In this document: positions 5,338-30,697 of the stretch, piece after piece
How positions within the stretch are numbered: position 1 is the stretch's first letter
Layout: every line of letters begins with the position of its first letter
Assembly (NCBI RefSeq): GCF_000427665.1
Contig: NZ_KE386572.1
Span: 2,628,196 to 2,692,195, forward strand
DNA length: 64,000 nt
Origin: Geminicoccus roseus DSM 18922
GTDB lineage: Bacteria > Pseudomonadota > Alphaproteobacteria > Geminicoccales > Geminicoccaceae
Reading direction: 5' to 3'
Notes under the pieces: model-generated
Told to the model about the DNA's origin: nothing
Database searches by the model: none
Seen by the model: only the letters and a program-made list of their open reading frames with translations
Program-made: the position numbers and the translations under genes

Positions 5338-6673
5338 CCCAGTTCGGCCAGCCGCTCGCCGCCGGGCAGGCGGGCGAGGATCATCGCCCGGGCGGCATGC
5401 GACACGCTCTCGTCGACGATCCGCTCGAACACCTCGCCGGTGAACGCGAAGGTCAGCATCGAGCGGGCCAGCGCCTCGTCCAGCCCGCGCGAGCGCAGGT
5501 AGAACAGGCCGGCCGGATCCAGGTCGCCGCAGGTGGCGCCATGGCTGCACTTCACGTCGTCGGCATAGATCTCGAGCTCGGGCTTGGCATCGATCTCCGC
5601 ATCGTCCGAAAGCAGCAGGTTGGTGCTCTTCTGGTACGAATTGGTGCGCTGCGCATCCTTGTGCACGAAGATCTTGCCGCTGAAGACCGCGTGGCCCCGC
5701 TCGTCGGCGACCGTCTTGTAGAACTGGTCGGACTCGCAGTCGGGCTGCTCGTGATGCATGCGGATCAGCGTGTCGGCGTGCTCGGTGCCCCGCGGCATGG
5801 TCAGGCCGTTCAGGGTCGCGTTGCTGTGCGTCCCGCGCAGGCGGACCTCCATCTCGTGCCGCTGCAGAGTCCCGCCCAGCGCCATCGTGGTCTGGGTCAG
5901 CCTGGAGCGGCTGCCCAGGGCATAGCGCGACCGGGTGATCGAGCTGCGCCCGTCGCCGTGCTGGGAGGTGCGGTCGAGGGTCAGCTCCGCGTCGTCGGCG
6001 ATCTCCACCGTCTCGACCTGGTTGAGCAGGCTCTCGCCCGCCCCCAGCGCCACGGTGGTCAGGATCGCGTGCAGGCGGGCACCCTTGCCCAGGCGGATCA
6101 CGTGGCGGGGATGCACCATGAACGCGCTGGAGGATGGGGTGAGCAGCGAGATGACCTGCAGCGGCTCGTCCACCGCTACCCCGTCATCCAGGGTGATGAA
6201 CGCGCCATCCTCGGTAAGCGCCCGGTTGAGCGCCTCGAAGGAATGCTCGGGCTCGCCCTCGATCTGGGCGCGGTCGACCAGTTCCGGGCTTTCGGCCAGG
6301 ACATGGGCGAGCGGGCGCACGACCATCCCGGCCGGCAGGCCGCCGATATGGCTGAGCTGCGGGACGATCCGGCCATTCACCATGATCAGCCGGCGCGCCT
6401 TGTGGCCGCCCGCGAAGTGCGGGATGACCAGCGAGGCGTCGGCGCTGTCGCGCGGCGCCACGCCGAACGGCTTGTTCACCAGGCTCGCGGCGTTGGTGTA
6501 CTTCCAGTTCTCGACGCGCGGCGTGGGCACGCCCAGCGCGTTGAACCGCTCGAAGGCGGCGGCGCGCTGTTCCAGCGCCTTGCCGGAACTGCCGGCCGCC
6601 TCGCCGCGCAGGCGCTCGAAGGCCTCCGCGAAGGCGGGCACCGGATCCACGGTGCGGTTGCGGGCGATGCTGG

Positions 6674-6677
<4 letters not shown>
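5334..6677 (-). CDS. sufD: Fe-S cluster assembly scaffold subunit SufD
   Basis: A 447-residue SufBD-family protein, partner of SufB and SufC in the cluster-building scaffold. The C-terminal half holds the diagnostic block with KCSHGATCGDLD, then FYLRSRGLDEALARSML, containing the conserved cysteine and histidine at the SufB-SufD interface. The N-terminal half is the more variable helical part with VENWKYTN, usual for SufD. Its start overlaps the sufC stop by ATGA. Length is typical. Confidence 0.95.
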
Positions 6678-7438
<761 letters not shown>

Positions 7439-7501
7439 GGTCTTCTTCGATCCGGCTGGGTGCCGTCGCACCCCGAAAAATGGTTCAGGACAGGGCGCGG
7501 C

Positions 7502-8947
<1,446 letters not shown>

Positions 8948-20059: not shown

Positions 20060-20400
20060 TCGGATCGGTGGCCAGGGTGCCTGTTGCGGGCACCCTGAAG
20101 CCTAGGAGAGCAGGTCTCCTCGGGAGTGAACTTGGGTGATTCGCAATCCCTGAGAAAGGGATAAACCATTCCTTTCCTGAAAGTCATCATTGCTCTCAAA
20201 ACGCTGCGTTGATTATCGTCGCATCGCCAGAAGCCATCGCTGAATGGCTGTCAGACCCATGCCCGGCACTGGCCGGTACTGGTGCATGAAATCTTGTTAA
20301 TTTCCTGAAATGCGGTGGATTATCAGTCGTTTCCTTGTCAGTCCCGGAGCCCGGGCAGCGAACAACTGCTCCAGTTCTGGTGCGACGACAGGAAACAAGA
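20060..20400 (+). promoter_or_regulatory. Long AT-richer control region before propeller gene 1
   Basis: A 341-base gene-free stretch, clearly less GC-rich than its surroundings. It holds two hairpins (AGGGTGCC/GGCACCCT at 20074-20096 and AGGAGA/TCTCCT at 20104-20120), two exact copies of TTTCCTGAAA (20173-20182, 20301-20310), and a 40-base segment (20301-20340) that aligns with the leader of propeller gene 2. The ribosome-binding site is AGGAAA six bases before the ATG. Confidence 0.5.
20074..20096 (+). terminator. Possible terminator hairpin after the SDR gene
   Basis: An 8-base perfect stem AGGGTGCC/GGCACCCT with a 7-base loop begins 15 bases after the SDR stop. There is no T-run, so it may be a factor-assisted terminator or an mRNA-stabilising hairpin. 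Confidence 0.4.
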
Positions 20401-21858
20401 ATGCGCTCCCTAAGCACCGCCGCGGGTGCCCGCCCGATGGCTGTTCTCGGGCTGGCCCTGCTGGCCTGGTCCGCCACCATGACGGCATCGCCCTTGCCCG
20501 TGCAGGCATCCGACATGCAGCTGGAGGATCGGGTCCGGCTGCACCGCACGCCGTCACGCGGCATGGAGTTCGTGCCGATCGCCAAGGCCGGCACCTCCGG
20601 CGGTGGCAAGTCCTCGCTCAAGGTCGAGATCGTCCGGCAGATCAGCATCGACGGCAACGCGATCGACAACGCCTACTCCAGCGTCCTGCCGCTCGACTTC
20701 AACAATAACGGCACTGCCGAGTTCCTGCACTGGAACGGCCACCGGATCATGCGCCTCTATGGCCGCTACGGCGGCAAGGTCTGGCAGATCTACAATCCTT
20801 CCGGGCGCAAGCAGAGTTCCGAGGCCTACACGCATCGGGACGGCGCTGCGGTCCTCGACCTGGACGGCGACCGCTCCGACGACGTCCTGCACTGCTGGCA
20901 GTCCGGCTCGCAGAAGCTCCTGATCGCCCGCGACGGCAGCACGGGCAAGGAGATCCGCCGGGCCAGCCTGAGCGGCCAGAGCAACGGCCCGACCGCGTTT
21001 TGCCGGATCTCGGTGTACCGGCAGCAGGCCAGCAAGCAGCCGATCATCCTGGTGGCGCACCAGCAGCCGGGCGGGAGCGCCAAGTGCGGCGGCAGGAACT
21101 GGGTCGACAACTGGACCCGGGTGGTGGCGTACGACACCAAGCTGAAAAAGCTGTGGACCACCGACACCTGCCATGCCGGCCACCAGACCGCCGGCGTCGA
21201 CGCCAACAATGACGGTTACCAGGAGTATTTCTTCGTCGGCAAGTACGCCCTGGACTTCAACGGCAAGATCCGCTGCAGCCTGAAGGGCTGGCACCCGTCC
21301 GACCATGTTGACGCGATCCGGGTGGCCAGGCTCGACCCGAGCTCGTCGCGGATGACGGCGGTCGCGGTGGGGCTGACCGGCGGCGGCGCGTTCGATGCCA
21401 GCAACTGCAAATGGCTCTGGGGGCTGCCCAAGTCGGTCCGGAACCCGCAGGAACTGGCGATCGCGCAGCTGGACCCGGCCCCCAAGCCACTTTCGATCAC
21501 GGTCACCCAGCGCGGCTCGGAAACAAATCCGAAGACCTTCGTCCTGAACGCTGACGGCAAGCTGACCCGCGCCATCTCGCGCCGGATCATCCCGATGCAG
21601 AATGCCGAGCTGGACGGCAACCGGACGAATGACGAGCTCCTGGCAATGTTCGGCGAGGTGTTCACCGGCACCGGCAAGCAGCTCCTGTCGCGCAGCTGGT
21701 ACTGGAACCTCAAGGGCACCCGCGTCACCCAGAAGAGCACTTCCAACGTCTATGACCGCTGGGTGGCCTTCCCGCTGCTCTACGACGTCGACAATGACGG
21801 CAAGGACGAGTTCGTCACCTGGGGGCAGAGCCTGATCGTGGTCGGCAAGCCAGGCTGA
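20401..21858 (+). CDS. Secreted calcium-loop beta-propeller-like protein, paralogue 1
   Basis: A 485-residue protein of no family I can name with certainty. A signal peptide covers about residues 1-38 (hydrophobic core AVLGLALLAWSATM, end near VQASD). The mature part has repeated acidic loops like those of FG-GAP/VCBS propellers: DFNNNGTAEF, DLDGDRSDD, DANNDGYQEYF and DVDNDGKDEF. Six cysteines are shared with both paralogues (LHCW, FCRIS, AKCGG, DTCHAGHQ, IRCSL, SNCKW), suggesting disulfides in an exported protein. The order HQTAGVDANNDG, then DHVDAIRVARLDP recalls the propeller of family 11 rhamnogalacturonan lyases, but catalytic function cannot be claimed. First of three tandem copies. Confidence 0.85.
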   Translation: MRSLSTAAGARPMAVLGLALLAWSATMTASPLPVQASDMQLEDRVRLHRTPSRGMEFVPIAKAGTSGGGKSSLKVEIVRQISIDGNAIDNAYSSVLPLDFNNNGTAEFLHWNGHRIMRLYGRYGGKVWQIYNPSGRKQSSEAYTHRDGAAVLDLDGDRSDDVLHCWQSGSQKLLIARDGSTGKEIRRASLSGQSNGPTAFCRISVYRQQASKQPIILVAHQQPGGSAKCGGRNWVDNWTRVVAYDTKLKKLWTTDTCHAGHQTAGVDANNDGYQEYFFVGKYALDFNGKIRCSLKGWHPSDHVDAIRVARLDPSSSRMTAVAVGLTGGGAFDASNCKWLWGLPKSVRNPQELAIAQLDPAPKPLSITVTQRGSETNPKTFVLNADGKLTRAISRRIIPMQNAELDGNRTNDELLAMFGEVFTGTGKQLLSRSWYWNLKGTRVTQKSTSNVYDRWVAFPLLYDVDNDGKDEFVTWGQSLIVVGKPG

Positions 21859-22253
21859 CCAATGAAAATGGCGGCGACGTCCAGGCACGTCGTCGCCGCA
21901 CCGCTGCTTTTGCTGTCCGCTTGTTGCGTTCCGGGCAACTTGCGGAAGTGTCGGAAACATCACCTGCAACTTACTCGGGTACGATCGGAGGAGCGGAGGG
22001 TCTTCTCCTGCGCTCGTTCCCTGGTTTCCGGATATTAATCTGGTGGGGTTGCGCAGGATCACCGGAAATGCCGCGATTCCGAGCAATCACGCGATCATAA
22101 TGCCGGGACAGCGTTCCTGTTGTCGCAGCCGGACATGAATGAAAACTCGTCCATTTCCCGAATTGTCGTGGAATGGAGGGACGTTTTCTTGTCATTTCCG
22201 ACGGCGGGAAAAACTAACTTCCCGCCTATCCAGTGCGACATCAGGAAACGAAC
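21859..22253 (+). promoter_or_regulatory. Control region between propeller genes 1 and 2
   Basis: A 395-base gap. It begins with a GCGGCGACG/CGTCGCCGC hairpin (21871-21899). The distal part, 22154-22194, is recognisably homologous to 20301-20340 before gene 1 (shared TTTCC-GAA-TG-GTGGA and TTTCTTGTCA pieces), and both genes share GTGCGAC-NN-CAGGAAAC over the ribosome-binding site. A further stem GGCGGGAA/TTCCCGCC (about 22202-22227) lies in the leader. The gene-2 region therefore arose with the gene by duplication and carries its own promoter, which I cannot place precisely. Confidence 0.5.
21871..21899 (+). terminator. Terminator hairpin after propeller gene 1
   Basis: A perfect 9-base stem GCGGCGACG/CGTCGCCGC with an 11-base loop starts 12 bases after the stop; a short CTTTTG run lies a little downstream. 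Confidence 0.55.
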
Positions 22254-23711
22254 ATGCGATTCCCGCGAACCGCTGAACGGCCTCGTGTGCATGCTGTGCT
22301 GGGAGCTGGCCTCCTGGCTGCGCTCGTGGCGAGCTTGGCATGGCCCGCAGACAGCCGAGCCGGCAGCCTCGAAACCAAGCTCGAGGACCGCGTTCTGCTT
22401 CATCGCAACGCTCCCCGCGGCATGGAATATGTGCCCACCTCGCGTTCGGGATCGTCCTCAGGGGGCAAATCCTCGCTCAAGGTCAAGGTTCTCAAGAAGC
22501 TCAACATCGACGGCAACGCGATCGACAACGCCTATTCCAGCGTCCTGCCGCTCGATTCGAACAATGATGGCAAGTATGGCTACCTGCACTGGAACGGCCA
22601 CCGCATCATGCGGCTGTTCGACAGGAATGGTAAGAAGATCTGGCAGGTCTACAACGGCTCCGGCCGCAAGCAGAGTTCCGAAGCCTACATCCATCGCGAT
22701 TCGGCGGCGATTCTGGACCTGGACGGCGACAAGAAGGACGACATTCTTCACTGCTGGCAGTCCGGTTCGACCAAGCGTCTGGTCGCCCGTGACGGCGCGA
22801 CCGGCAAGGAGATCCGCCGGGTCAACCTGAGCGGCCAGAGCAACGGCCCGACCGCTTATTGCCGGGTCGCGGTCTACCGCCAGCAGAAGACCAAGAAGCC
22901 GATCATCCTGGTGGCGCACCAGCAGCCGGGCGGCAGCGCGAAGTGCAACAAGAAGAACTGGGTCGACAACTGGACCCGGGTGGTGGCCTTCGACACCAAG
23001 CTGAAGAAGCTGTGGACCAAGGATACCTGTCATGCCGGCCACCAGACCGCCGGCGTCGACGCCAACAATGATGGCTATCAGGAGTATTTCTTCGTCGGCA
23101 AGTACGCGATGGACTTCAACGGCAAGACCCGCTGCAGCCTGAAGGGCTGGAGCAAGACCGACCATGTCGATGCGATCCGGGTGGCCAAGCTCGACCCGAA
23201 GTCGTCGAAGCTGACGGCGGTCGCGATCGGCATGAGCGGTGGCGGCGCCTATGACGCCAGCAACTGCAAGTGGCTGTGGAAGGTGCCGGTCAAGAACCCG
23301 CAGGAACTGGCGATCGCGCAACTCGACCCGGCGCCGAAGCCGCTCTCGGTCACGGTCACCCAGCGGGGCACGGAGAAGAGCCCGAAGACCTACGTCCTGA
23401 ACTCCAAGGGCAAGGTCATCCGCAAGATCTCGCGCCGGATCATCCCGATGCAGAACGCCCAGCTGGACGGAAACAAGAAGAACGACGAGCTGGTGGCGAT
23501 GTTCGGCGAGGTGTTCACCGGTACCGGCAAGCAGCTCCTCTCGCGCAGCTGGTACTGGAACCTCAAGGGTTCCAAGGTGAAGCAGAAGAGCACCTCCAAC
23601 GTCTATGACCGCTGGGTGGCGTTCCCGCTGCTGTTCGACGTCGACAAGGACGGCAAGGACGAGCTCATCACCTGGGGGCAGAGCCTGATCGTGGTCGGCC
23701 GGCCCGGCTGA
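22254..23711 (+). CDS. Secreted calcium-loop beta-propeller-like protein, paralogue 2
   Basis: Also 485 residues and, by eye, about four in five residues identical to paralogue 1 over the central 200. The signal peptide is HAVLGAGLLAALVASLAW, ending near DSRAGS. Acidic loops DSNNDGKYGY, DLDGDKKDD, DANNDGYQEYF and DVDKDGKDEL are kept, as are all six shared cysteines. It is noticeably lysine-rich at positions where paralogue 1 has Arg, Ser or Thr (for example KKLNIDG, KTKKP, NKKNW), so the mature surface should be more basic. ATG at 22254 has AGGAAA upstream; an earlier ATG seven codons before lacks one. A clear intrinsic terminator follows. Confidence 0.85.
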   Translation: MRFPRTAERPRVHAVLGAGLLAALVASLAWPADSRAGSLETKLEDRVLLHRNAPRGMEYVPTSRSGSSSGGKSSLKVKVLKKLNIDGNAIDNAYSSVLPLDSNNDGKYGYLHWNGHRIMRLFDRNGKKIWQVYNGSGRKQSSEAYIHRDSAAILDLDGDKKDDILHCWQSGSTKRLVARDGATGKEIRRVNLSGQSNGPTAYCRVAVYRQQKTKKPIILVAHQQPGGSAKCNKKNWVDNWTRVVAFDTKLKKLWTKDTCHAGHQTAGVDANNDGYQEYFFVGKYAMDFNGKTRCSLKGWSKTDHVDAIRVAKLDPKSSKLTAVAIGMSGGGAYDASNCKWLWKVPVKNPQELAIAQLDPAPKPLSVTVTQRGTEKSPKTYVLNSKGKVIRKISRRIIPMQNAQLDGNKKNDELVAMFGEVFTGTGKQLLSRSWYWNLKGSKVKQKSTSNVYDRWVAFPLLFDVDKDGKDELITWGQSLIVVGRPG

Positions 23712-23736
23712 CGCCTGCAATCCTTCCTCTCGGAGG

Positions 23737-23762
23737 CCCCCGGAAAGCCGGGGGTCTTTTTT
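23737..23762 (+). terminator. Rho-independent terminator after propeller gene 2
   Basis: A textbook structure: CCCCCGG (23737-23743), tetraloop AAAG, CCGGGGG (23748-23754) and the T-run TCTTTTTT (23755-23762). It ends the transcript of gene 2 and shows that gene 3 needs its own promoter. Confidence 0.9.
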
Positions 23763-23988
23763 GCGCCTGCCGGCGAACTTTACCTGAAAATCAAAGCTGA
23801 GGCGGAACAATTCCACTAACGCATTGTGCATCAACGTGAATCAACCAATAAATTCCCGGCAAAATGTCTTTGTTTTTATGAAATACTCGTAATTTCCGCG
23901 ACATCGATAGACCAGCCTTCAACGGCGATCTACTTCCTGGTTCAACTCGGCAGGTCCGGTCGGACATGCCCGTGGGCGGGGAGCCGGA
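23763..23988 (+). promoter_or_regulatory. AT-rich promoter region of propeller gene 3
   Basis: The 226 bases after the terminator are the most AT-rich in the window, especially 23820-23930 with runs such as TTTGTTTTTATGAAATA. A TTTACCTGAAAA element (23779-23790) resembles the TTTCCTGAAA copies before gene 1. The region does not align with the leaders of genes 1 and 2 over any length. I cannot fix the -35 and -10 boxes. Confidence 0.4.
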
Positions 23989-25458
23989 ATGATCGGGTGG
24001 AAACGTCTCTGGCAGTTGAATGCCAGGGCTGCGGCAGGGCTGTGCCTGCTCGTGGCCATGGCCATGTCGGCAACCTCTTCCGCACAGGCGGCCCCGCTCG
24101 ACGACAGGCTGGATGCACGGGTCCTGCTGCACCGCAACGCCCCGCGCGGGATGGAGTACGTCCCCCTGGCGACGGCCACGGCCATTAACGGCTCGCGCCG
24201 CAACGCCCTGAACGTCGACGTGCACATCAAGGCGGAACTGGACGGGACGGCGATCGACAACGTCTACGCCAACGTCCTGCCCCTCGACTTCAACAATAAC
24301 GGCCGTTTCGAATACCTGCACTATAACGGCTACAACTTCATCCAGGCGTTCAACTCCAGTGGCCGCAGGGTCTGGCGGATCACCAACCCGGCCGGCCGCA
24401 AGAACAGCGTCACGGCCGCCACGCATCGCGACGGCGCGGCCATCCTGGAACTGCGGGGGCAGGAGAAGCCGGCCGGCCAGGACGTGCTGCATTGCTGGGC
24501 GGAGGGTTCGCAACGGCTCCTGATCGCCCGCCGCGGCATCACCGGCGCGGAACTGCGCCGGGCGAAGCTGGACGGCACCGCGACCAGCTCCGGAAGCGTC
24601 TGCTACATCTCCGTCTACCGCATGCAGTCGACCGGCAAGCCGATCATCCTGGTGGCCCACAACCAGCCGGGCGGCAACACCCGCTGCGACGGCAAGAACT
24701 ATGTCGACTACTGGACCCGCGTGGTGGCGTTCGACCTCCAGCTGAACCGGCTGTGGCAGACCGACACCTGCCACGCCGGGCACCAGACCGCCGGGGTGGA
24801 CGAGAACGGCGACGGGCTGACCGAGTATTTCTTTGTCGGCAAATATGCTCTCGACGAGAACGGCAAGATCCGCTGCACCCTGCAGGGCTGGAACAGCAAG
24901 GACCATGTCGACGCCATCCGGGTGGGCCAGCTCGACCCGGCCAAGCCGGGACTGCAGGCGGTGGCGGTCGGGCAGACCGGGATGGCCGCCTTTGCGGCCA
25001 ACGACTGCCGGCGCCTTTGGAGCGTGGGCTCCAGCCTGGTGAAGAACGGCCAGGAACTGGCCCTGGCGCAGTTCGATCCGGCGCCGGCACCGCTGTCGAT
25101 CCTGGTCACCCAGCGCGGCTCGGAACCAAAGCCCACCAGCTACGTGGTGAGCGCTCAAGGCAAGCTGCTGCGCAACCTCAAGCGCCGGATCGTGCCGCTG
25201 CAGAACGCCGAGTTCGACGGCGACCGGCGCACCGACGAGATCCTCTCCATGTGGGGCACCGTTGACGACGGTTTTGGCCGGCAGCTCCTCTCCCGGAACT
25301 GGTACTGGAACCTGAAGGGTACCCAGGTGAAGGAGACCGGCCGGCAGGACTATGATCGCTGGGCGCCGTTCCCGGTCCTGTTCGACGTCGACAGCGACGG
25401 CCGCGACGAGATGATCGTCTGGGGCCAGAGCCTTCTCGTGGTGGGCAAGCTGCGCTGA
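23989..25458 (+). CDS. Secreted calcium-loop beta-propeller-like protein, paralogue 3
   Basis: A 489-residue, more diverged member of the tandem family. Signal peptide: AAAGLCLLVAMAMSATSSAQA, cleavage near residue 34. It shares LHRNAPRGMEYVP just after the leader, the six cysteines (LHCW, VCYIS, TRCDG, DTCHAGHQ, IRCTL, NDCRR), and acidic loops DFNNNGRFEY, DENGDGLTEYF and DVDSDGRDEM. The loop DLDGDxxDD of the others is replaced by an ELRGQEKPAGQ insertion, so one calcium site may be lost. A GC hairpin at 25474-25496 separates it from the convergent transporter genes. Function unknown. Confidence 0.85.
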   Translation: MIGWKRLWQLNARAAAGLCLLVAMAMSATSSAQAAPLDDRLDARVLLHRNAPRGMEYVPLATATAINGSRRNALNVDVHIKAELDGTAIDNVYANVLPLDFNNNGRFEYLHYNGYNFIQAFNSSGRRVWRITNPAGRKNSVTAATHRDGAAILELRGQEKPAGQDVLHCWAEGSQRLLIARRGITGAELRRAKLDGTATSSGSVCYISVYRMQSTGKPIILVAHNQPGGNTRCDGKNYVDYWTRVVAFDLQLNRLWQTDTCHAGHQTAGVDENGDGLTEYFFVGKYALDENGKIRCTLQGWNSKDHVDAIRVGQLDPAKPGLQAVAVGQTGMAAFAANDCRRLWSVGSSLVKNGQELALAQFDPAPAPLSILVTQRGSEPKPTSYVVSAQGKLLRNLKRRIVPLQNAEFDGDRRTDEILSMWGTVDDGFGRQLLSRNWYWNLKGTQVKETGRQDYDRWAPFPVLFDVDSDGRDEMIVWGQSLLVVGKLR

Positions 25459-28438: not shown

Positions 28439-29500
28439 TCAAGCCGCCAGCACGCGGGTGAGGACGTCCTCGTACATCTTTTCGACCTTCTCGCCCTTGT
28501 AGGAGGCCACCTCCGACTGGGCCAGCACCTCGTCCGGCGGATAGACCTGCGGGTCGGTGCGATCCGTCTCGGGCAGGAGCTGCACCGCCGGCTTGTTCGG
28601 GATCGCGTACATGATCTCTTCCGCGATCGCCGCATGGACCTCGGGGCGCAGGATGAAGTCGATGAAGGCATGGGCGTTGTTCGGGTGCGGCGCACCCTTG
28701 GGGATGCACATGCAGTCGATGCCCAGCAGGGAGCCCTCGCTCGGCACCACGAAGTCAAGATCGTCGTCCTCGGCCATCACCTGGCGGAAGTCGCCCATCC
28801 AGTCGACCGCCAGATCCACCTCGCCGGACAGCAACAGGTCCTGGCCGGTGTCAGGCGCGAACATCTTCACGACGCCCCGCTTCTTGGCGTCGAGCAGCAC
28901 GTCCTCGGCCGCCTTCAGGTCGGCGGGATCCTCGCTGTTCAGGGACTTGCCCAGGTATTTCAGCACGGCGCGGATGAGATCGGTGTCGTTGGGCAGGGAG
29001 ACCCGGCCCACCGGCGCGTCCGGACCGAACACCGCGTCCCACGAGGTCGGCTCCTGCTCCACCGCCGACTTGCGGTAGCCGATCGCCAGCAGGCTGTAGG
29101 TATAGGGCGCCCCGTACTTCAGGCCCGGGTCGTAGCTCGGGTTGGCGAAGGCCGGGGCGATGTTCTTCAGGTTCGGGATCAGGGCGTGGTCCAGCGGCAT
29201 CAGCATGTCGCCGGCGACCATCCGCTCCACGAAATTGTTCGACGGGAAGATCACGTCGTAGCCGGGATTGCCCTCGCGCAGCTTGCCGAACAGCTCGTCG
29301 GAGGAGGCGTAGAGGTCGTAGCGTACATCGATCCCGGTGGCGTCGGTGAATTCCGAGAGCGTATCCAGGCCGATATAGGTGTCCCAGTTGTAGACGTTGA
29401 CCTGCTTTTCTTCCTGGGCATGCGCCAGTTTCGCCAGCGGCAGCAGGCTTGCTACGGCCAGGCTGCCTCCAAGCAGGCCGCGGCGGCGGACAGATCGCAT
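28439..29500 (-). CDS. Polyamine ABC transporter substrate-binding protein (copy 1)
   Basis: A 353-residue periplasmic binding protein of the PotD/PotF family. The N terminus MRSVRRRGLLGGSLAVASLLPLA is a likely Tat signal. The mature protein opens with QVNVYNWDTYIG, the conserved start of the family that carries ligand-contacting Trp and Asp, and has FPSNNFVERM and FAPDTGQDLLLSGEVD. The ATG at 29500 has AAGGAG six bases upstream; earlier in-frame ATGs do not. It closely resembles the neighbouring copy 2. Confidence 0.93.
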   Translation of the reverse strand: MRSVRRRGLLGGSLAVASLLPLAKLAHAQEEKQVNVYNWDTYIGLDTLSEFTDATGIDVRYDLYASSDELFGKLREGNPGYDVIFPSNNFVERMVAGDMLMPLDHALIPNLKNIAPAFANPSYDPGLKYGAPYTYSLLAIGYRKSAVEQEPTSWDAVFGPDAPVGRVSLPNDTDLIRAVLKYLGKSLNSEDPADLKAAEDVLLDAKKRGVVKMFAPDTGQDLLLSGEVDLAVDWMGDFRQVMAEDDDLDFVVPSEGSLLGIDCMCIPKGAPHPNNAHAFIDFILRPEVHAAIAEEIMYAIPNKPAVQLLPETDRTDPQVYPPDEVLAQSEVASYKGEKVEKMYEDVLTRVLAA

Positions 29501-29614
29501 GACCATCTCCTTCAAGGTTCGGGCGCTGGCGGGCGACAACGCCATGGGTTGAAAGCGCAGGATCGTGACGGTGTCGTGACGGTCAAGGCCGGCTGGAGCT
29601 CGAGGCGTCCGGCC

Positions 29615-30697
29615 TCAGGCCGCAAGAACCCTGGTCATCGCCTGTTCGTAGAGCGTTTCCACGGCTTCGCCCTTGTAGGTCGCGTACTCGCAGCGGGCGA
29701 GGGTCTCTTCGGAAGGGTAGATCGCCCTGTTGTTCCGGGCGGCTTCCGGGATGAACGCCATCGCGGCGGCATTCGGGCTGGCATACCCGATCTCGGTGGC
29801 GATGGCGCCGTGGACCTCAGGGGTCAGGATGAAGTTGATGAACGCATGGGCATTGATCGGGTGGGGCGCGCCCTTGGGGATGACCATGTTGTCCGACCAG
29901 AGCATGCTGCCTTCTTCCGGGATCACGTAGGCGAGGTCGTCGTCCTCGGCCGCGACCTGCTGGATGTCGCCGGACCATTCCAGGCAAATGTCGACCTCGC
30001 CGGCCAGGAGCAGGTCCTGTCCGGTATCGGGCGCGAAAGTCTTGATGCCGGGCTTGATCCGGATGAGGTAGTCACCGGCAGCGGCGATCTGTGCCGGATC
30101 CCTGGTATCGAGCGAGAAGCCCAGTGCCTTGAGCGCCATGCGCAAGGTATCGACGCCGGACAGCAGCGAGAAGCGGCCCTGCATCGCCTCGTTCTCGGTC
30201 ATGTCCTTCCAGGAGGTCGGCTTGGTCGGGAACATGCTCTGGCGGTAGCCCAGCCCCTGGGTGCCCCAGAAATAGGGCGCGCCCCATTTCAGGCCGGGAT
30301 TGTAGGGGGCATTGGCGAAGGCGGGCGCGATATTCTCGAGATTCGGGATCAACGTGCGGTCGACTGCGATCAGCATGTCGGCCGCCGCCATGCGCTCCAC
30401 GATATTGTTGGACGGGAAGATCACATCAAAACCGGGATTGCCTTCCCGCAGCTTGCCGAACAGTTCGTCAGCCGAGGCGAACAGGTCGTAGCGGACGTCG
30501 ATCCCAGTGGCCTCGGTGAACTCGGCGAGGGTGTCGGTCCCGATATAGGTGTCCCAGTTATAGACATTGACCTGCGCCTCCTCCGCCGCCTGCGCGACGC
30601 GGCCGAACGGCGCGATCGACGCCAGGCTCAGGGTCGTGCCGAGCAGGTGGCGGCGCGACAGGTAGGGCATCGGGAACGGGGAGGGGCGGCGGGCCAT
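29615..30697 (-). CDS. Polyamine ABC transporter substrate-binding protein (copy 2)
   Basis: A 360-residue paralogue of copy 1, placed first in the operon. A twin-arginine signal is plain (YLSRRHLLGTTLSLASIAPFG). The mature start QVNVYNWDTYIG and the block FAPDTGQDLLLAGEVD are nearly the same as in copy 1, whereas the middle (GAPYFWGTQGLGYRQSMF against GAPYTYSLLAIGYRKSAV) differs, so ligand preference may differ. The ATG at 30697 has GGAG nine bases upstream. Two binding proteins sharing one permease pair is the likely arrangement. Confidence 0.92.
   Translation of the reverse strand: MARRPSPFPMPYLSRRHLLGTTLSLASIAPFGRVAQAAEEAQVNVYNWDTYIGTDTLAEFTEATGIDVRYDLFASADELFGKLREGNPGFDVIFPSNNIVERMAAADMLIAVDRTLIPNLENIAPAFANAPYNPGLKWGAPYFWGTQGLGYRQSMFPTKPTSWKDMTENEAMQGRFSLLSGVDTLRMALKALGFSLDTRDPAQIAAAGDYLIRIKPGIKTFAPDTGQDLLLAGEVDICLEWSGDIQQVAAEDDDLAYVIPEEGSMLWSDNMVIPKGAPHPINAHAFINFILTPEVHGAIATEIGYASPNAAAMAFIPEAARNNRAIYPSEETLARCEYATYKGEAVETLYEQAMTRVLAA

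Follow-up and report, generated by a model that had tools for sequence, protein, structure and literature searches.

Secreted beta-propeller proteins of Geminicoccus related to PL11 rhamnogalacturonan lyases and their possible role at the cell surface

What purpose could be served by three adjacent, similar genes for exported proteins in Geminicoccus roseus DSM 18922, a member of a little-studied genus with representatives from marine and desert-crust samples? These genes lie in a window of 64,000 nucleotides (contig NZ_KE386572.1, positions 2,628,196 to 2,692,195), in the coordinates of which copy 1 (20401..21858) and copy 2 (22254..23711) code for 485 residues each and copy 3 (23989..25458), the most divergent of the three, for 489, all on the plus strand. 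An initial annotation, made from the letters alone, had described them as bearing signal peptides, six common cysteines, a segment beginning with LHR and several calcium-type loops, a description that holds in every part. We find that they belong to a family sharing ancestry with the catalytic propeller of the rhamnogalacturonan lyases of polysaccharide lyase family 11 (PL11). To our favoured reading, that they are secreted, PL11-related proteins which bind glycans at the outer surface or within the biofilm matrix and are linked through an upstream palindrome to the remodelling of surface polysaccharides, we would give an even chance.

All three reading frames are intact, and the ratio of nonsynonymous to synonymous substitution (0.14-0.33 between ortholog pairs) indicates purifying selection; therefore, the copies are real genes. 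Their signal peptides end, by inspection, in AxA-type motifs (...VQA-S, ...SRA-G and ...AQA-A), from which secretion, as earlier proposed, is predicted. The mature chains contain exactly six cysteines each, which are common to all 13 Geminicoccus members of the family, and all three copies share the segment LHR..xRGMEYVP, with the variant RGMEFVP in copy 1. Each copy further has three or four loops of the Dx[DN]xDG type; in copy 2 numbering, the DxNxDG/DxDxDG loops start near 101, 155, 269 and 462, with the loop at 155 being degenerate in copy 3.

Shared ancestry with the PL11 catalytic propeller

The AlphaFold model of copy 2 is an eight-bladed beta-propeller (predicted local distance difference test score (pLDDT) 77; predicted template modelling score 0.79), computed from a shallow alignment of 14 sequences. 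A Foldseek search with this model places YesW, the Bacillus licheniformis PL11 enzyme and YesX at the top (E 2e-14 to 8e-14), with the fourth match trailing by over four orders of magnitude. In VIA, none of the matches listed aligns over more residues or at a higher identity than YesX (363 residues, 21%, Z 22.5), and YxaL (Z 25) and BamB stand slightly above it in Z. Model and matches agree on the propeller that had been surmised from the loops.

The same relationship emerges at the level of sequence profiles. Searched against solved proteins with hmmsearch, the family profile recovers YesW (E 1.5e-7) and YesX (E 3.7e-6), and no others at E up to 1. A profile-profile comparison (hhalign) with five PL11 proteins aligns 261 columns with a probability of 97% and an E of 4e-11. 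As none of the 142 genomes of the class that we sampled contained a true PL11 protein above the cut-off, the PL11 sequences for comparison were taken from plasmid records. Among curated Pfam families, FG-GAP_3 (PF13517, cut-off 26.9 bits) is matched above its cut-off by copy 1 (32.1 bits) and copy 2 (32.6 bits), with copy 3 alone reaching 18.7, and at E 0.1 it matches all 14 members. RGL11_C (PF21348), in contrast, stays below its curated cut-off of 27 bits, its scores being 24.6 in copy 3 and 21.4 in the distant member at locus L027, and matches 2 of the 14 members at E 0.1. In YesW, calcium blades lie at 158, 222 and 369, and activity requires one more calcium site (PMC3123361). These three positions have aligned counterparts in the family loops at 101, 155 and 269, and the loop at 462 is the family's own. 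The PL11-like order of motifs, already recognized in the initial annotation, is supported together with the homology.

A different role, that of a periplasmic assembly or redox propeller in the manner of BamB or the PQQ enzymes, might be read from the BamB chains, which attain a VIA Z of ~23-24, and from a weak PQQ_2 match in one member. However, the BamB matches are only 11-13% identical, and the family profile matches PL11 alone among solved proteins; BamB is also not known to have such calcium loops or the six cysteines. Hence, we regard this role as very improbable. The fold matches to Bap1, BamB and YxaL had no part in deciding membership.

Fate of the PL11 active-site residues

Does the family retain the catalytic apparatus of PL11? 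The calcium ligands and substrate contacts are given for two Bacteroides PL11 enzymes (PMC8787155); through alignment, in a conversion of our own with the spacing checked, these become His363, His399, Asp401, Glu422, Arg452, Lys535 and Tyr595 of YesW. The first three correspond in the hhalign alignment to H263, H304 and D306, residues that all 14 members share without exception. The loop with Glu422 falls into a gap of the family in the profile alignment, and a replacement for this ligand may come from elsewhere in space. Arg452, which holds the substrate carboxyl, aligns to E351, a Glu in 13 of the 14 members and a His in the L027 member, the correspondence being one of profile columns and not of superposed side chains. 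Lys535, the other residue contacting the substrate carboxyl, lies outside the hhalign range and by inspection falls near R453/W454, where R, K, H, Q and A vary. The stacking residue Tyr595 and its AYNQPPH segment are absent, as the last residues of the family align to YesX 552, ahead of that segment. The N-terminal PL11 domain is also absent: ahead of the first blade strand, at 77, there are only about 40 mature residues, of low pLDDT, and PL11 proteins have roughly 100 residues before the first calcium blade region. The catalytic residues are thus divided, with His363, His399 and Asp401 kept and Glu422, Arg452 and Tyr595 not. Because the family lacks the Glu422 loop, Arg452, the Tyr595 segment and the N-terminal domain, its members, judged by their residues, are not PL11 lyases in the strict sense and should not be filed as PL11; they may bind the class of polymer that PL11 enzymes use.

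The invariance of H263, H304 and D306, which extends even to the 32%-identical member, raises the alternative of a new polysaccharide lyase or hydrolase, in which catalysis still takes place at the His-His-Asp calcium site, the Arg, Lys and Tyr of PL11 have given way to other residues, and the substrate is an exopolysaccharide of the genus itself rather than pectin. Such an enzyme would keep company with the PL14-like, GH10 and GH56-like secreted enzymes, the genes of which share the palindrome described below. The losses just listed, together with the variability at the apparent Lys535 site, argue against it, and we consider it unlikely.

The copies across Geminicoccus

Identity is 76% between copies 1 and 2 and 57% between copies 1 and 3. 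The G. roseus genome codes for five members: besides the tandem three, there is one at C5:1281602-1283047 and, on the minus strand, another at C5:2951485-2952852. Four members occur in each of G. harenae and G. flavidas, two of which stand in tandem at the equivalent locus, flanked in both species by exonuclease/glycosylase-like genes and a polyamine-type transporter (names by inspection). The third tandem copy is found in G. roseus only among these three species. Hence, the expansion that had been viewed as local is real but genus-wide, with five, four and four copies. The divergent fourteenth member (32% identity) occurs in one other Geminicoccaceae genome, at L027, and none was found in the 28 other genomes of this family that were searched. 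Beyond the Geminicoccaceae, our samples of 289 genomes of the class and 200 of the phylum, the widest scope of the search, contained no members. A plasmid search returned no homologs, no NCBIfam family was matched, and the viral structure library gave generic propellers only. Further along the window (28439-30697, minus strand), two adjoining, similar periplasmic proteins of the polyamine-binding type precede one transporter, an arrangement kept in G. flavidas. Separately, the member at C5:1281602 has a divergent neighbour (L025:6347-8218, minus strand), an FG-GAP protein with a DUF4114-like stretch.

Copy 3 falls outside the pair of copies 1 and 2 in the tree, which would fit the earlier suggestion that it is the older, but its long branch (0.87) leaves faster change as an alternative to greater age. 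In the last third of the gene, copies 1 and 2 share 84-89% of their nucleotides, against 68-72% when copy 1 is compared with its counterpart in G. harenae, suggesting that gene conversion probably keeps this part of the two copies alike. A hairpin followed by a T run lies 3' of copy 2 (23732..23762, plus strand; -22.6 kcal/mol, z -2.1) and is likely an intrinsic terminator, though unlisted by a consensus terminator scan; therefore, copy 3 is probably transcribed on its own.

The copies also differ in charge. Mature copy 2 is strongly basic (isoelectric point 9.8, net charge +32), and with its two orthologs forms a lineage of net +30 to +32 (isoelectric points 9.8-9.9), as against +1 to +17 in the other Geminicoccus members. 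This contrast supports the functional specialisation that the initial annotation had considered. C231 and C259 are both lost in the L027 member, and their joint loss suggests that they form a disulfide.

Links to extracellular polysaccharide and known precedents

Within the 300 bases ahead of the gene, 9 of the 13 Geminicoccus members carry the palindrome TTTCCGGAAA with at most one mismatch, as opposed to 1 of 122 control genes, and that sole control gene belongs to the GH56-like set described below. It ranks best among all 1024 palindromic 10-mers, and shuffled upstream regions yield a mean of 0.27 and a maximum of 3. Four of the five G. roseus members have it. In the window, TTTCCTGAAA, one mismatch away from the palindrome, occurs twice upstream of copy 1, at 20173..20182 and, 100 bp upstream, at 20301..20310; TTTCCGGATA, likewise with one mismatch, lies 229 bp upstream of copy 2 (22025..22034; all three on the plus strand). 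An exact TTTCCGGAAA lies 97 bp ahead of the copy 1 counterpart in G. harenae and 100 bp ahead of that in G. flavidas. Apart from the palindrome, BLAST at the chosen setting revealed no resemblance among the upstream regions of paralogs in the same genome, and our literature search found no relevant paper on this palindrome in bacteria.

Elsewhere on contig C5 of G. roseus, exact or near sites include 369808, 858803, 1584349, 2953703, 3988229, 4380773, 5357582 and 5368145. Many of these precede secreted or polysaccharide-related genes, with the proviso that the gene caller over-extends frames in GC-rich DNA, making calls of sites inside genes unreliable and those of flanking genes approximate. 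The site at 369808 precedes a secreted PL14-like lyase (L081:1216-2427, minus strand; 27.3 bits, cut-off 27), with exact TTTCCGGAAA ~80 bp upstream. The sites at 5357582 and 5368145 precede a divergent GH10/GH3 pair and a divergent GT2-DUF3131/acyltransferase pair, respectively, and the palindrome is also upstream of one of the module-bearing GH56-like genes described below. In G. flavidas, an exact site stands before a gene resembling the G. roseus GSDH gene, and a near site between sulfotransferase-like and polysaccharide pyruvyltransferase-like genes (names by inspection). The exact form makes up 10 of 44 sites of the looser pattern in G. roseus, versus 1 of 24 and 5 of 41 in genomes G003 and G015. 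Genome-wide, that looser pattern, WWTCCGGAWW, outnumbers its reversed control by 44 to 6, an excess rejected as evidence because relatives without the family show comparable figures (27 to 5, 24 to 4 and 20 to 1). The case for the palindrome then lies in its enrichment ahead of the family genes and in the share of exact sites. We also observed two tandem DUF3131 proteins and a GT2 glycosyltransferase opposite an acyltransferase (L107:11193-15978, minus strand), possibly an exopolysaccharide unit.

A second link is a module of ~65 residues (LGNVVIDTSGWRYNMTVMREQAKT...), two copies of which are N-terminal in the family member at C5:2951485. It is repeated 2-5 times, with Gly/Ser/Pro linkers, in four other secreted G. 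roseus proteins with a GH56-like C-terminal domain, and it precedes GH56-like domains and once a propeller. The module loci are L026:8983-10839 (minus), L051:3912-5207 and 5763-7886 (minus), L052:4038-5450 (minus) and L053:5040-6326 (plus). Pfam has no family for the module, and the syntenic G. flavidas gene lacks it. The GH56-like domain matches hyaluronidase in a PDB profile search (E 5e-5) and is sub-threshold in Pfam. In a weak model of one such protein (pLDDT 64, from 4 sequences), each module consists of three helices, and a barrel is built of alternating strands and helices. Thirdly, the L027 homolog adjoins a 1232-residue adhesin-like surface protein with Ig, cadherin and laminin-G domains, and asparagine-synthase-, glycosyltransferase- and flippase-like genes (named by inspection) are nearby. 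The palindrome, the module and the surroundings of the distant homolog all suggest a connection with extracellular polysaccharide; hence, the earlier view that the neighbours are silent on the role is correct for the adjacent genes but not for these more distant links.

A structural surface or adhesion protein, serving in an envelope layer or in attachment between cells or to surfaces, with a protein or mineral as its partner, would likewise suit the integrin-type calcium blades, the high cysteine content and the presence of secreted YxaL and Bap1 among the close folds. However, the links of motif, module and homology all lead to sugar, and we deem such a partner quite unlikely. On the favoured reading of secreted glycan-binding proteins, the calcium loops and three disulfides would stiffen the extracellular propeller ring, and a uronic-acid or otherwise anionic exopolysaccharide would be held by basic residues together with the His-His-Asp metal site that the family has kept. 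Each copy might serve polymers or conditions of its own, most notably in the very basic copy 2 lineage, and promoters sharing TTTCCGGAAA with the genes of secreted glycan-active enzymes would have the propellers made during surface polysaccharide remodelling. Several observations weigh against it. Three of the four ligands of the activity-linked PL11 calcium site are invariant in the 14 members, exceeding the needs of a pure binding scaffold; the distant L027 member is acidic (net -22), so that basic charge is not family-wide; and the fold is common to many propellers with other roles. The palindrome also precedes choloylglycine hydrolase, carboxylesterase, GSDH and DUF2501 genes, which lack a clear glycan link, and the orthologous upstream regions in its count are not independent.

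A broader proposal, possible but somewhat doubtful, is a genus-specific extracellular matrix-glycan regulon, in which one regulator would govern propellers with a partly dismantled site, PL14-like, GH56-like, GH10 and GH3 enzymes and genes for exopolysaccharide synthesis, the propellers being non-catalytic glycan clamps or a new lyase family with a changed site. TTTCCGGAAA may define such a polysaccharide regulon in Geminicoccus. If the glycan-binding reading is true, a surface protein family specific to this lineage arose from a propeller of the pectin-lyase type, keeping the metal site and shedding the substrate-gripping residues, and offers a testable case of the change from enzyme to lectin.

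Among known systems, PL11 (YesW 2z8r/2zux, YesX 2zuy, B. licheniformis 4cag; RGL11_C) shares with the family the secreted eight-bladed propeller, three calcium loops in register, the motif order HQ..VDANNDG followed by DHVDAIRVAKLDP, and the equivalents of His363, His399 and Asp401. Unlike PL11, the family has ~450 rather than ~600 residues, lacks the N-terminal domain and C-terminal segment, has six extra conserved cysteines, lies outside a pectin gene cluster and falls under the Pfam cut-off. YxaL of Bacillus velezensis (7dxn), a plant growth-promoting factor, is a secreted propeller with the best VIA Z, but is only 13% identical. The FG-GAP_3/VCBS superfamily (PMC8023676) has in common with the window proteins the signal peptide, the calcium motif in loop AB and, in copies 1 and 2, blades above cut-off; it is, however, broad and without one function, and the Geminicoccus proteins form a distinct sub-family near its RGL11 branch. 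In Vibrio, the eight-bladed propeller of Bap1/RbmC binds Vibrio polysaccharide (PMC10102183). Bap1 aligns with our model over 338 residues at 17% identity in VIA and is likewise secreted, and the binding of own exopolysaccharide that we propose would be a further shared trait; the window copies differ in being single-domain, without beta-prism or mucin-binding modules, and no sequence-level match was found. With no claim of family, Bap1/RbmC would thus be the nearest functional precedent for the Geminicoccus propellers.

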